In this document: positions 34,297-58,166 of the stretch, one piece after another
How the letters are laid out: every line of letters starts with the position of its first letter
Position numbering within the stretch: position 1 is the stretch's first letter
Position numbers and translations under genes: made by a program
Virus record (IMG/VR): IMGVR_UViG_3300044837_000219
Coordinates: 1 to 64,000 of that record
Origin: a virus
Strand: one strand, 5' to 3'
DNA length: 64,000 bases
Notes under the pieces: generated by a model
What the model saw: the letters and a program-made list of their open reading frames with translations, nothing else
Database searches by the model: none
What the model was told of the DNA's origin: nothing

Positions 34297-34555
34297 GTGG
34301 AGGCACAAGACGTTCGTCCCCGCCGTCATCGTGAAGCGATACGGCTGGGATCGCGTCCTGCGCGAGCGCTGCGCCGATGCTCTGTTCATGGCAGGCAAGG
34401 CGGGCATATTGACGCTCGACGAGCCGAAGAACACCACGGTGACATCATGGGTCATTGGTTCTGACGGTTCATACATCCCGCAGCCAGCGGACGGCACGGA
34501 GACGTTCTTCGGCATCGAGTTTACCTTCGATGTTGACATCCAGGCGGCGTCGTGA
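34277..34555 (+). CDS. Unknown small protein
   Basis: The 92-residue product begins inside the previous gene (ATG 34277; GTG 34289 is an alternative). It has a basic first third and a beta-rich acidic end. Its TGA stop forms the first three bases of the operator palindrome at 34553. No family recognised. Confidence 0.55.
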   Translation: MKTPVSEWRHKTFVPAVIVKRYGWDRVLRERCADALFMAGKAGILTLDEPKNTTVTSWVIGSDGSYIPQPADGTETFFGIEFTFDVDIQAAS

Positions 34556-34569
34556 GACAGTAGGTCTCA
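34533..34569 (+). promoter_or_regulatory. GAGAC-type promoter/operator 1
   Basis: TTGACA at 34533-34538, 17-bp spacer, GACAGT at 34556-34561. The palindrome TGAGACAGTAGGTCTCA spans 34553-34569. The upstream stop TGA is its first three bases, and its last A is the start of ATG 34569, so the mRNA should be leaderless. Confidence 0.8.
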
Positions 34570-35333
34570 TGACGCAGACAGACAAGATCCTCGAAAAGAT
34601 CGCCCTCCTGCTTCGCAAGGCCGAGTCAACGACGCCGCAAGAGGCCGAGGCGCTCACGGAGCACGCCGAGCGCCTGATGGTTCGTCACGGCATCGAGCGC
34701 GCTCGTGCGGAGGCTGCAGCGCTTGGTCGCGACCGCAAGGCCGAAGAGATCGTCACCATCGAGATGGACGTGCCCAGCGGGGCATATGGCGATGCTTACG
34801 CGTCGGTCACACTCGCCATCGCCAATGCGTACGGTGCCGTTCGGGTCTACATCTTCACCAGGCGCACCGACGAAGCGAAGTCGAAGACGGTGAGGATCGT
34901 CGGTTACCAGAGCGATGCTGAATCGGTGCGCACGTTGGCGACGTCACTTCTGCTGCAGGGCCGCGTAGCGCTGGACGCGTGGTGGAGGTTCGAGCGCGAG
35001 AACTACGGTCGGATCGCGCCTGCGACGGCTGGTTCATGGCGGCGCGCGTACCTGCGTGGCTTCGGTTCAGGTGCTGCGGAGAAACTGAAGAACATGCGAC
35101 TGAAGGTCGTAGCCGAAGAGGAGACGAGCACTCCAGGCACCGAGTTGATGCTGGTTGACCGCAAGGCTGCTGTCGACATCGCTTACGACGACATTGCCGC
35201 AAGTCTCGGTCTGCGCATGGGCCGAAGCGTCCGCGTCAGCCCGCGAGCGATGAATGCAGGTCGGCGCGACGGGAGCAACGCTAACGTCGGAGGTGGCACG
35301 CTGGCCGGATCTCGGCGCGCGCTTGGTAGGTGA
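34569..35333 (+). CDS. DUF2786-like protein
   Basis: The 254-residue product begins with a helical segment (Lys-Ile-x2-Leu-Leu-x-Lys-Ala-Glu-Ser-Thr-x3-Glu-Ala) typical of DUF2786 proteins. Next is a central domain with several Tyr and Arg residues and a Gly/Ser/Arg-rich tail. Proteins of this family are found in phages and in integrating elements; biochemical role unknown. Its ATG is the last base of the operator palindrome plus TG, with no ribosome site, so leaderless translation is expected. Confidence 0.75.
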   Translation: MTQTDKILEKIALLLRKAESTTPQEAEALTEHAERLMVRHGIERARAEAAALGRDRKAEEIVTIEMDVPSGAYGDAYASVTLAIANAYGAVRVYIFTRRTDEAKSKTVRIVGYQSDAESVRTLATSLLLQGRVALDAWWRFERENYGRIAPATAGSWRRAYLRGFGSGAAEKLKNMRLKVVAEEETSTPGTELMLVDRKAAVDIAYDDIAASLGLRMGRSVRVSPRAMNAGRRDGSNANVGGGTLAGSRRALGR

Positions 35334-42613: not shown

Positions 42614-43168
42614 ATGAAGAAGATCCCGACCATTTTCGTGCGCGACCCGGAGAACCCGGACCGGATTCTGCTCGACCAGATCCATCCCGCGTGTCGCTGG
42701 GTGTTCGACGGCGAAGGTACTCCAACGCGCAAGTACGACGGCACCTGCGTCCTGCTTGACGTTCAAGGACGATGGTTCGCCCGTCGGCAGGTCAAGGTCG
42801 GCAAGAGCGCTCCCGAGGGCTACATCCCGGTCGATCGCGACGACGTCACCGGCAAGGTGTTCGGCTGGGAGCCGATGGAGAACTCCGGCTGGAAGTCGAT
42901 GCACGCTGAGGCTCTGTTCCGCCAGGAGGGCGAGTTCTGGCTTCCGGGGACGTACGAACTCTGCGGCCCGAAGATCAATGGCAATCCCGAGCGACTTCAC
43001 GGCCACATGCTCGTCGCGCACTCCGCAGCGCAGGTCATTCCGCTACCGGCGGAAATGTTTCGTCCGCTCGATATGGCGCTGTGGGTGAAGTCGCAGGGCT
43101 GGGAGGGTATCGTGTGGCATCACCCGGACGGTCGCATGGCGAAGTTGAAGGTCCGCGATCTGTTCTGA
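42614..43168 (+). CDS. RNA ligase (nucleotidyltransferase fold)
   Basis: The 184-residue product has the motifs of covalent nucleotidyltransferases. Lys40 in Arg-Lys-Tyr-Asp-Gly-Thr is the AMP-binding lysine (motif I). Tyr-Glu-Leu-Cys-Gly-Pro-Lys-Ile at 114-121 is motif III/IIIa. Glu164-Gly-Ile-Val-Trp-His-His is motif IV and Ala-Lys177-Leu-Lys179 is motif V. It is small and lacks a separate C-terminal domain. Such phage ligases repair cut tRNA or other RNA during host defence, or join DNA nicks if divergent. The tRNA-like RNA at 51.3 kb is a speculative substrate. Confidence 0.8.
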   Translation: MKKIPTIFVRDPENPDRILLDQIHPACRWVFDGEGTPTRKYDGTCVLLDVQGRWFARRQVKVGKSAPEGYIPVDRDDVTGKVFGWEPMENSGWKSMHAEALFRQEGEFWLPGTYELCGPKINGNPERLHGHMLVAHSAAQVIPLPAEMFRPLDMALWVKSQGWEGIVWHHPDGRMAKLKVRDLF

Positions 43169-47616: not shown

Positions 47617-47622
47617 ATGCAG

Positions 47623-47667
47623 AAGGCCCGGACCCAGGATGCTGCTGGCATCCTGGGTCCGGGCCTT
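47623..47667. terminator. Strong bidirectional terminator
   Basis: A 19-bp perfect inverted repeat (AAGGCCCGGACCCAGGATG and its complement) with a 7-base loop lies between converging operons. A-rich and T-rich ends (AGAAGG / CCTTCGT) allow stops in both directions. The 179 bases from here to the leftward lipoprotein gene show no gene. Confidence 0.9.
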
Positions 47668-47846
47668 CGTGTTGCGCGTCCAACCACACCGTGAGAGTTG
47701 AACGCTGCGCAGGTGCGGCTCGCTCGCCGTGCTGGGCGTTGCGTGATGTCGCGGCTACAGCCACTTCACCGGGCGAGGTCGTGGCCGCCCTTCCCCTCGA
47801 CGCGCCCTGCGTCGGAGATTGAGGCGGGGTTGACGCCCTCAGGTGA

Positions 47847-53456: not shown

Positions 53457-53959
53457 GAGATAACGTCGAGCGTCCGTTGCGCGAGACGGAGATAACTATT
53501 CCGGCGACGCACGAGGTGTACGTCGCCCAGGTGGCGACGACTGGTCGGTTCCGTGAGGACCGCTGGCCGAACATCGAAGCGGACATCGAGATGCGCGTTC
53601 GGCGTCGGCGTAACCCGGCGCGACGACGCGACCCGGAGGAGTTGATTCGTGCGGAGTCGCTGCCGCTGTCGTTGGCGTACGCGCTGGCGCTCGCGGTGGC
53701 GGCTCCAGTCGAGATTCCGATCAGCGCCATCCGCAACGTTGATTGGCGTGTCACCAAAATCAGCATCTACAACGACAGTTTCGACGGGCTCTGCGTCGAA
53801 CTTACCTTCGAGTCAACTGCAGCGGTTCTGAGCACCGAAGCGAAGATTTACTGGCACATCAAGGACTGGACGGCGCCGCTCTGGTTCGCCGACGCCATCC
53901 GTGACTTCGTCGGGCCGATGTTCTCGCGGCGGGGGTTGACAGACGTGTCATCCACATGA
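53453..53959 (+). CDS. Unknown protein
   Basis: The 168-residue product (GTG overlapping the previous stop) has an Arg-rich segment near residues 42-62 and a beta-rich rest. The promoter at 53936 lies inside its 3' end, and its TGA is the first three bases of the operator palindrome. No family recognised. Confidence 0.6.
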   Translation: MRDNVERPLRETEITIPATHEVYVAQVATTGRFREDRWPNIEADIEMRVRRRRNPARRRDPEELIRAESLPLSLAYALALAVAAPVEIPISAIRNVDWRVTKISIYNDSFDGLCVELTFESTAAVLSTEAKIYWHIKDWTAPLWFADAIRDFVGPMFSRRGLTDVSST

Positions 53960-53973
53960 GACAGTAGGTCTCA
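53936..53973 (+). promoter_or_regulatory. GAGAC-type promoter/operator 8
   Basis: TTGACA 53936-53941, 18-bp spacer, GACAGT 53960-53965. Palindrome TGAGACAGTAGGTCTCA at 53957-53973. It is the clearest case: stop codon at the left end of the palindrome, start codon at the right end. Confidence 0.85.
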
Positions 53974-54272
53974 TGATGACAGCGAAGCAGATCGACCAGA
54001 ACCCCTTCGTCGGCGAACTGAAGCAGCACGTGAAGTGGGCGGGACTTCCGATGCACCAGTTCCGCGACGAGTGCCTGCACGTTCGCGCGATGCTCGCCGC
54101 CCTCGCTGGCGACCAGAACATCGCTGGATTCCTTGGCGCGGAGCCGAACCTGGACCGCGACAACGACCTCTACAACTGCCTGGAGACCGTGTTCGCGTTC
54201 CACGCGACGCCCGGCGACCTGGCCGACGCCATCGAGGCGTTCGACTTCATGATCGCACTGACGGAGGGCTGA
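53973..54272 (+). CDS. Unknown helical protein, leaderless start
   Basis: The 99-residue product begins ATGATG on the last palindrome base (53973), with no ribosome site. It is helical and acidic with one Cys near residue 30. It is the first of a run of seven tightly linked genes (53973-55897). No family recognised. Confidence 0.6.
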   Translation: MMTAKQIDQNPFVGELKQHVKWAGLPMHQFRDECLHVRAMLAALAGDQNIAGFLGAEPNLDRDNDLYNCLETVFAFHATPGDLADAIEAFDFMIALTEG

Positions 54273-55897: not shown

Positions 55898-55912
55898 TTT
55901 CGCTGTCGTCGC

Positions 55913-55957
55913 CGACGCTGCGACCCCTGGCCCACTGGGCTGGGGGTCGTAGCGTCG
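55913..55957 (+). terminator. Strong hairpin terminator
   Basis: A 15-bp inverted repeat with a single G-T pair (CGACGCTGCGACCCC / GGGGTCGTAGCGTCG) ends the operon. It lies five bases before the protease start, so that gene may use a leaderless or promoter-proximal start. Confidence 0.75.
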
Positions 55958-55961
55958 CAGC

Positions 55962-56858
55962 ATGCCTGCTGACTTCGTCCACACGCGCCGCATCCCCGCG
56001 CTGCCTCCCGACGTTCCCGGCGCTGGACGGCTGGGACGCCACGTGCGCCACGACCCGCGCTCGCGGGCGTTCGCCTACAAGCCAGCCACCGTGTCGTTGC
56101 GTTCGCGCTCGCATCCGCGCCGCATCCCGGTGCTCGATCAGGGCGAACTGGGGAAGTGCACCGCAGAGGCGTCCGTCGGCGCGCTCGGCACCGACCCGTT
56201 CTTTCCGTCGCTGTCCGACCTGGGGCAACTCACCTTCGACGACGTGATGAGTAACGATCTCTACTCGCAGTTCACCCGTGAGGACTCCTACGACGGCACC
56301 TGGCCGCCGGACGATACCGGCAGCGACGGGCTCACCGCAGCGAAGGTGTTGAAGGAACGGGGACTGATCTCCGGGTATCAGCACGCGTTCACGCTGGAGG
56401 ATGCGCTCGCGGCGCTGTCCGGCAACGGTGATGACGATCCGGGGCGGCCGGTGATTACCGGCGTCAACTGGTACTCGTCGATGGACAAGCCGACGTCGTA
56501 CGGCCAGGTGAGCATCACGTCGCAGGCGTACGTGCGTGGCGGGCACGAGTTCGAGGTGTCGTCCATCGACGTCGCCCAGAAGCGCGTGTGGTGCTGGCAG
56601 TCCTGGGGGGCGTCGTGGGGCGTCAATGGCATGTTCTGGATGTCCTGGGACACCTGGGAGCGCCTGCTGCACGAAGAGGGCGACGTTACCGTGTTCGTGC
56701 CGCGCGGCGGGGTCACTCCGGCGCCGACGGTCGATCCCGCTGACCTCGCACTCGCTGCGGCGTTCCGCACCGGCAACTGGGTCGGCTCGCATCATGTCGG
56801 AGCGAACAAGGCAGCAGCGCTCGCTGCCGCAGCGTGGCTGAAGGCCAGGAATCTGTAG
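55962..56858 (+). CDS. Papain-like (C1A) cysteine protease
   Basis: The 298-residue product has the catalytic order of papain-like proteases. Gln60-Gly-Glu-Leu-Gly-Lys-Cys66 supplies the oxyanion-hole Gln and the nucleophile Cys. His195 lies in Gly-Gly-His-Glu-Phe. Gln213-Ser-Trp-Gly stands where Asn-Ser-Trp-Gly is usual, so Gln replaces the third catalytic residue. Residues 1-55 are basic and may be a prosegment. There is no signal peptide. A helical tail rich in Ala (about 250-298) follows. C1A proteases are rare in phages; the target may be a host protein. Confidence 0.8.
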   Translation: MPADFVHTRRIPALPPDVPGAGRLGRHVRHDPRSRAFAYKPATVSLRSRSHPRRIPVLDQGELGKCTAEASVGALGTDPFFPSLSDLGQLTFDDVMSNDLYSQFTREDSYDGTWPPDDTGSDGLTAAKVLKERGLISGYQHAFTLEDALAALSGNGDDDPGRPVITGVNWYSSMDKPTSYGQVSITSQAYVRGGHEFEVSSIDVAQKRVWCWQSWGASWGVNGMFWMSWDTWERLLHEEGDVTVFVPRGGVTPAPTVDPADLALAAAFRTGNWVGSHHVGANKAAALAAAAWLKARNL

Positions 56859-56916
56859 CCTGCTCCGTTGGCGCACATGCAAATGCACGCGCAAATGCAT
56901 GTGCGATTGAGTGCGC

Positions 56917-56945
56917 TTGACCTTTACAGCGATGTGAGGGACCGT
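56917..56945 (+). promoter_or_regulatory. Variant promoter with GACC-N3-GGTC dyad
   Basis: TTGACC 56917-56922, 17-bp spacer, GACCGT 56940-56945, then AGGTC. The layout equals that of the GAGAC modules, but the dyad is GACC-GTA-GGTC. Just upstream lies the dyad GCACATGC...GCATGTGC (about 56874-56903) with two AAATGC units. It serves no gene, only the candidate RNA. Confidence 0.6.
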
Positions 56946-56952
56946 AGGTCAC

Positions 56953-57097
56953 AGGCGCAGCCCGAGAGAAAACCATAGCCCGGATTGCGTTGGAGTGGTC
57001 TCCGTTTGGTCAACCGATGGTCTGCGGAGGCAGGCCGCTGACCGTCGGTGGAGGCCACTCCACAGACAGGCCGTCCTCAGCGTCGAGGGCGGCCTGT
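56953..57097 (+). ncRNA. Candidate structured small RNA
   Basis: Between a promoter and a terminator there are about 145 bases with no credible reading frame. TGGAGTGG (about 56990) pairs perfectly with CCACTCCA (about 57056), and CTCCG pairs with CGGAG inside, giving a long branched stem. It ends with the stem ACAGGCCG...CGGCCTGT followed by TCGTTT. This is the layout of an independent small RNA. No family could be named. Confidence 0.55.
57066..57097 (+). terminator. Terminator of the candidate small RNA
   Basis: Stem ACAGGCCG / CGGCCTGT with a 16-base middle, followed by TCGTTTGAC. The next operator promoter begins five bases after it. Confidence 0.65.
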
Positions 57098-57101
57098 TCG
57101 T

Positions 57102-57139
57102 TTGACAGCGCTGTGACTCCTGTGAGACACTAGGTCTCA
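57102..57139 (+). promoter_or_regulatory. GAGAC-type promoter/operator 9
   Basis: TTGACA 57102-57107, 18-bp spacer, GACACT 57126-57131. Palindrome TGAGACACTAGGTCTCA at 57123-57139; its last A begins the ATG of a 16-codon leader. Confidence 0.85.
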
Positions 57140-57189
57140 TGAGCACAGACACTTACTTCATCGCTGCCACTATTGGTGTACCGAGGTGA
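57139..57189 (+). CDS. 16-residue leaderless leader peptide
   Basis: The ATG begins on the last base of the operator palindrome, so it would be read from a leaderless mRNA. The 16-codon frame ends in TGA overlapping the GTG start of the next gene. It probably delivers ribosomes to that gene by translational coupling. The peptide itself need not act. Confidence 0.55.
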   Translation: MSTDTYFIAATIGVPR

Positions 57190-58166
57190 ACCCCCAGCGT
57201 CGGCTGACGCCCGCTCGTTGCATCGAGTGGATGGGCGAGGTTCTCGGCCTGGAGAAAGAACTCAAGGCAGGCATCGCCTCGTACGTTCGCAGCATGATGC
57301 CGGACGCTGAGCGTGCTGTTGCCGAAGGTCTTATACAGATGGCCTTCTCGGCATCGGACTCCATGCGGAAGGGTGACGCCGTTCTCGTCACCACCGAGAC
57401 GATGCAGTTGGTCGACTTCGCTTCGCAGTCTCTCGTCGAGGAGGACGAGCGTCTGTTCTACGACGTCGACCTCGCTCCGCTCCAGCGCGCCGTTCTGTTC
57501 TTCGAGCAGCCGTTGCCGGTCACCATCACCGCTGGATACAGGGACTTGCGTAGCAACTACGACGGCAAGATTGTCTGCGACGCGATGATGTTCTGGGACT
57601 CGCGAAGCGACTATCCGGATGAGTCCGACCCGGTGCAGGTCTACGTGTGCTACCTCCGCGCCATCGAGTCGCCTCGCCTCTCGATGGCTATCGACGAGTC
57701 GTTCTTGACGATTCTGTGGATGACCGGCACCACCGAAGTCATGGAGCGCTACACGCCCGAGAACTATGCGCCGTCGAGCAGTGATGACGTCGGTGCACTC
57801 TCGCGAGCGGACCTGCATTCCTTCCTGCAGTCGTTCTGGACGTTGATGCGCCAGCCCATCATCAGCGAGCAGCGCGTGCGTCCGATCGAGCCCACCGCGC
57901 GGAAGCATCGCAAGAAGTTGACGAATCGCGGAGAGGTGCGGATGCTGCACCTGCGTCAGCACGTTCGACCGACTGGCGCCTCGGCGGCGGGGTCTGCTGC
58001 GGAGCGGCACTTCGAGTACTCGCATCGGTTCATTGTGCGTGGCTTCTGGCGCAACCAGCGCTGCGGCGTCGGTGGCAAGGAGCGCAAGAGGATCTGGGTT
58101 GACTCTTACGTCAAGGGACCTGCGGACAAGCCGCTCGTCGTCGGCAAGCGCGTCTACAAGGAGTGA
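57186..58166 (+). CDS. Unknown protein with actinobacterial C-terminal motif
   Basis: The 326-residue product (GTG, coupled to the leader peptide) is helical in its first 250 residues. The C-terminal part has His-Arg-Phe-Ile-Val-Arg-Gly-Phe-Trp-Arg-Asn-Gln, then Lys-Arg-Ile-Trp-Val-Asp-Ser-Tyr-Val-Lys-Gly-Pro and Val-Tyr. I recall similar Trp-Arg-x-Gln / Ile-Trp / Lys-Gly-Pro patterns in proteins of actinobacteria and their mobile elements, without a known function. Confidence 0.65.
   Translation: MNPQRRLTPARCIEWMGEVLGLEKELKAGIASYVRSMMPDAERAVAEGLIQMAFSASDSMRKGDAVLVTTETMQLVDFASQSLVEEDERLFYDVDLAPLQRAVLFFEQPLPVTITAGYRDLRSNYDGKIVCDAMMFWDSRSDYPDESDPVQVYVCYLRAIESPRLSMAIDESFLTILWMTGTTEVMERYTPENYAPSSSDDVGALSRADLHSFLQSFWTLMRQPIISEQRVRPIEPTARKHRKKLTNRGEVRMLHLRQHVRPTGASAAGSAAERHFEYSHRFIVRGFWRNQRCGVGGKERKRIWVDSYVKGPADKPLVVGKRVYKE

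Follow-up and report, generated by a model that had tools for sequence, protein, structure and literature searches.

A predicted small noncoding RNA gene behind a diverged family promoter in a likely actinophage

The + strand interval 56953–57098 of a virus genome from IMG/VR is, with a probability of roughly 0.6, an autonomous gene of an actinophage for a small noncoding RNA that acts in trans. The promoter, the fold, the terminator and the absence of an ORF give good support for an independent small-RNA gene; these features were computed, as was the strand bias of the fold, and from them we infer transcription, its start, its regulation and the action in trans. We consider it likely that the locus yields a discrete RNA of this extent, about 145 nt long, and we lean towards a role in trans over a by-product or a cis leader. 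A stable trans-acting noncoding RNA appears to be the most economical reading of the locus.

The window, that is, the whole stretch of DNA analysed, comprises bases 1–64000 of a 69,004-base IMG/VR virus record. The phage has a GC content of 64% and carries the genes of a tailed phage (terminase, portal, major head protein, tail protein, endolysin, primase and exonuclease), as well as a gene at 42614–43168 that matches an RNA ligase family (PHROG 14301, E 1.7e-41). The identity of its terminase to the terminases of Arthrobacter and Streptomyces phages is about 50%, and to those in other IMG/VR contigs up to 68%. The source is likely an uncultured actinophage, a virus of high-GC bacteria. The candidate RNA unit sits between a peptidase gene, whose stop is at 56858, and the next transcription unit, which begins at 57102. 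Directly 5′ of the peptidase start codon, the ATG at 55962, there is a very stable hairpin, at 55912–55958, which may mask the ribosome-binding site.

Promoters of a single family recur across this genome. They consist of TTGACA, a spacer of 17–18 nt, and GACNNT lying within the dyad GAGAC-N5-GTCTC, followed mostly by A. The window contains twelve canonical promoters, and 64000–69004 a further three; their spacer is mostly 18 nt, with 17 nt at 34554 and 49576. Four family members have an ATG immediately 3′ of the dyad, at 34569, 53973, 57139 and 65617 (the regions 34533–34583, 53936–53990 and 57102–57150 of the window and, further along the record, 65580–65620). Residue 1 of the protein begun at 34569 aligns with position 3 of the PHROG 421 profile, and therefore these members probably give rise to leaderless mRNAs, with the start site at the base after the dyad; leaderless mRNAs seem to be common in the family.

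The original prediction placed a promoter with the geometry of this regulon upstream of the RNA, and such a promoter is indeed present. By matrix score and family comparison, its −35 element is TTGACC (56917–56922, + strand), which is followed by a 17-nt spacer and the −10-like hexamer GACCGT (56940–56945). When the window was scanned with a matrix made from 11 canonical sites, the variant site being left out, it scored 13.7 bits, with only the 12 canonical sites ranking above it among distinct sites; 0.07 sites this good are expected per Markov-random 64 kb of the same dinucleotide make-up. The site fits the family in its TTGAC −35, its spacer within 17–18 nt, its GACNNT −10 and its A at +1, at the end of the dyad.

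The hexamer lies in a diverged operator-like dyad, GGGACCGTAGGTCAC (56938–56952, + strand), which had been taken for a different operator, GACC-N3-GGTC. This is correct for the right arm, GTCAC, which is unique among the 16 sites, the other 15 of 15 having TCTC; by its lack of a TCTC right arm the variant promoter falls outside the full-dyad class. It is not correct for the remainder: because the family core GAC-N5-GTC is kept, and because the left arm GGGAC is also found at two other family sites, 68136 (− strand) and 68351 (+ strand), we prefer to see the dyad as a diverged relative of the phage’s promoter family, neither a full member nor another kind of site such as a second operator. The GACC-N3-GGTC pattern occurs six times in the window versus 2.3 expected, and the other five occurrences are absent from promoter-like sites. 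Since this is the sole site without the TCTC right arm, altered regulation stays plausible. The GTCAC arm would argue for weaker or absent control and not for a second regulator, and if one protein reads both half-sites, its binding to the variant dyad should be weaker.

The predicted start of the RNA is A56953, by analogy with the family members in which an ATG stands right after the dyad. On the + strand, bases 56955–57100 fold with −87.3 kcal/mol, against −57.4 ± 4.1 kcal/mol in dinucleotide shuffles (z −7.3, with none of 200 shuffles as good), while the reverse complement of 56953–57098 reaches −74.2 kcal/mol (z −4.8), 13 kcal/mol weaker. This difference between strands is largely due to G-U pairs: of the pairs in the two main hairpins that are not Watson-Crick, four of four are G-U on the + strand and none is A-C, which fits a + strand RNA that is kept folded, the number of such pairs being small (1 in 16 by chance). 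The overall layout is a weak 5′ hairpin, a main hairpin and a terminator hairpin, so that the long stem, originally described as branched, is unbranched in the predicted fold; the predicted length of about 145 nt agrees with the original description. The main hairpin (56991–57062, + strand, −48.5 kcal/mol) has a 23-bp stem, made of a 13-bp and a 10-bp helix around a 9-nt bulge, GTTTGGTCA, and then a 1x1 mismatch and 4 bp, with the 7-nt loop AGGCAGG. It is followed by an intrinsic-terminator-like hairpin of 14 bp (57065–57098, + strand, −27.5 kcal/mol), whose imperfect T tail, TTCGTTT, overlaps the −35 of the next promoter at 57102. We find no plausible ORF in the RNA; the ORFs that start inside it have no placed ribosome-binding site and run through the terminator into the next promoter. 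Thus, the terminator and the absence of a gene stand as first described, and the three criteria for an sRNA gene, namely a promoter of its own directly upstream, no coding ORF, and a stable structure with an intrinsic terminator, are all seen at this locus.

The regulon was also said to start again just downstream, and it does: the next canonical promoter, TTGACA-N18-GACACT with the dyad GAGACACTAGGTCTC (57102–57138, + strand), has its TTGACA at 57102, beginning about 4 bases past the terminator stem, and has a leaderless ATG at 57139. This ATG, directly after the dyad, opens a 16-codon ORF (57139–57189, MSTDTYFIAATIGVPR) whose stop overlaps the GTG of a 326-aa gene (57186–58166, + strand; PHROG 15934), which has no Pfam match and is served by its own promoter. 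The short ORF is possibly a leader peptide or a means of translational coupling.

On the other side of the unit, the dyad with AAATGC units that had been noticed before the promoter is found at 56872–56905 as a 15-nt inverted repeat, CGCACATGCAAATGC-ACGC-GCAAATGCATGTGCG, 87% complementary. It lies 13 nt past the peptidase stop, with its centre at about −64.5 relative to the predicted start, and the window holds no second AAATGC-type dyad. The repeat would be either an end-of-gene hairpin lacking a T tail or a putative binding site. Two larger repeats lie elsewhere in the record. One, long and near-perfect, lies between convergent genes at 47620–47670 (z about −8 and −6 on the two strands) and is probably a bidirectional terminator; the other, an inverted repeat that is imperfect and about 170 nt long, lies in gene-free DNA outside the window (about 64890–65070; L152:1890–2070), has CCTTACCCC-type units and is possibly an origin or a further noncoding RNA.

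We propose that the host RNA polymerase, alone or together with a phage factor, would initiate at about A56953 at the diverged family promoter, copy about 145 nt and end transcription at the terminator hairpin, 57065–57098. The product would be a very stable two-hairpin RNA, made during infection like the noncoding RNAs of other actinophages and most likely acting in trans, either through a bound protein or through base pairing of the exposed 9-nt bulge and 7-nt loop. Given the loss of the TCTC half-site, the variant promoter would probably escape the dyad-reading protein or obey it weakly. It is tempting to go further and to suppose that this loss freed the promoter from the regulon, such that the RNA is made when the other family promoters are shut, targets a protein of the host or the phage and sets the course of infection, but we regard this extension as improbable.

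Other explanations of the locus have to be weighed. Strong intergenic hairpins are frequent in this GC-rich genome, some of them of similar strength and plainly terminators, and the same terminator–promoter composite is reused directly before the promoter at 60031. The reuse also counts for the preferred reading, as a second terminator of this make. Together, these facts would suit a locus without functional RNA, in which a leftover promoter and back-to-back terminators insulate two transcription units and the transcript is a by-product. However, one hairpin would suffice for insulation, whereas here there is an extra 23-bp hairpin with a strand bias, and the precise placement of a promoter before it is unlikely by chance; we consider this account unlikely. 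We also doubt a role of the RNA as a cis leader or attenuator, in which transcripts from the variant promoter would sometimes read through to the 326-aa gene, with the hairpins setting the frequency by put-type antitermination or attenuation. The hairpins are suitably placed between promoter and gene, and CAGGCCGC (57031–57038) can pair with the 3′ arm of the terminator, GCGGCCTG, but this alternative pairing costs 26 kcal/mol (−61.7 versus −87.9 kcal/mol), which makes the terminator-undoing fold too weak for an attenuator, and the 326-aa gene has its own canonical promoter right after the terminator. Several inverted repeats within 230 bp could likewise act as DNA, in a replication origin, a packaging site or an attachment site. 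This is very improbable, as the fold favours the + strand RNA with its G-U pairs, searches of the record turned up neither an integrase nor a resolvase domain, and the cumulative GC skew has no turn at the locus.

The original prediction saw in the RNA a possible regulatory switch that, under a separate operator, would oppose the GAGAC regulon. The TCTC half-site is missing only here among the 16 family promoters, and the dyad at about −64.5 is unique. Nevertheless, the operator is the family dyad in variant form and not a new one, the complementarity between the RNA and the phage gene starts is no better than that of shuffled controls, and the search for lysogeny domains found none, so the switch is very improbable. 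The accessible parts of the RNA, its 5′ tail, bulge and loop, showed no pairing with the starts of phage genes beyond that of shuffled segments, and an antisense sRNA acting on phage genes was accordingly rejected. Pfam tyrosine-integrase and serine-resolvase domains were not found anywhere in the record, and, with no antisense match above the controls, a switch between lysis and lysogeny is left without support. A type III toxin–antitoxin RNA, expected to contain tandem repeats and to be followed by a ToxN-type gene, was likewise set aside, there being no tandem repeat in the RNA and no Pfam match for the gene that follows.

Relatives of the RNA were sought widely, and no homolog was found in IMG/VR, in 50,697 phage records or in Rfam. 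Neither blastn in the phage records nor megablast of the right arm gave a relative, and the neighbour proteins in IMG/VR offered no route to one. The promoter pattern matched only four AT-richer contigs in IMG/VR, once each, which we take as chance, and in its strict form it had no match in the genome contigs; the apical-stem pattern found 33 stretches, none similar across the flanks, and the basal-stem pattern 95, none similar. A covariance model, built from one sequence entered twice and hence weak for distant relatives, gave outside its own locus only weak matches (13–21 bits, E 0.01 or worse) against terminase relatives and other phages, and nothing convincing on the right arm of D29. No Rfam family reached its gathering cut-off, the best being ncS011 with 22.2 bits versus 48 required.

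Primase and terminase scans gave no closer relatives of the phage. The terminase profile found 80 loci, and the GAGAC promoter pattern occurred in 0 of the 23 longer records searched among them. Related phages each have a repeated promoter/operator element of their own: the element varies and the layout stays. In one relative, G010, with a terminase 65% identical, the element is TTGACA...GTGCATGATGGTCACAT, in several copies; in another, G008, it is of the type TTGACAAC-N4-TTGAC. In G010, the regulon promoter closest to the end of the contig leads into a gene-free two-hairpin stretch (z −5.2) whose sequence is unrelated to the candidate RNA. It is a parallel in arrangement, not a homolog, and it hints at an arrangement that may recur without sequence conservation. 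In G008, a gene-free stretch of about 300 nt (L144:13488–13790) follows the TTGACAAC element and has several hairpins and runs of A or T (z −3.5).

Expressed noncoding RNAs without a known function have been reported in several actinophages, and a compact, well-delimited candidate with one odd family promoter offers a clean test of separate regulation and role. In the Cluster A mycobacteriophages D29, L5 and StarStuff, the Pleft transcript of about 500 nt is processed to 100–400 nt, and a further intergenic noncoding RNA is found in the right arm; these RNAs have no known function (PMC5712189). Like them, the candidate would be an actinophage noncoding RNA that starts at a phage promoter and ends upstream of protein-coding genes. 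Unlike them, it is predicted, intergenic and about 145 nt long, whereas theirs were shown experimentally and the main one directly follows the early promoter located at the end of the genome. The Rhodococcus phage WC1 has intergenic noncoding RNAs, nc_1 to nc_3, which are among its most transcribed loci and have no known function (PMC10986025). By description, the candidate resembles them in being intergenic and in an actinophage; theirs were shown by RNA-seq whereas ours is predicted from sequence. As for the promoters, the many sites repeated across the genome recall the stoperators of Cluster A, which are asymmetric repeated operators with a known repressor (PMC9283540, PMC6550527); here, in contrast, the dyads are symmetric, GAGAC-N5-GTCTC, lie on the promoter −10 and are known from sequence alone. 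The closest known kind thus seems to be that of the expressed actinophage noncoding RNAs whose function is unexplained, of which our candidate would be an orphan.
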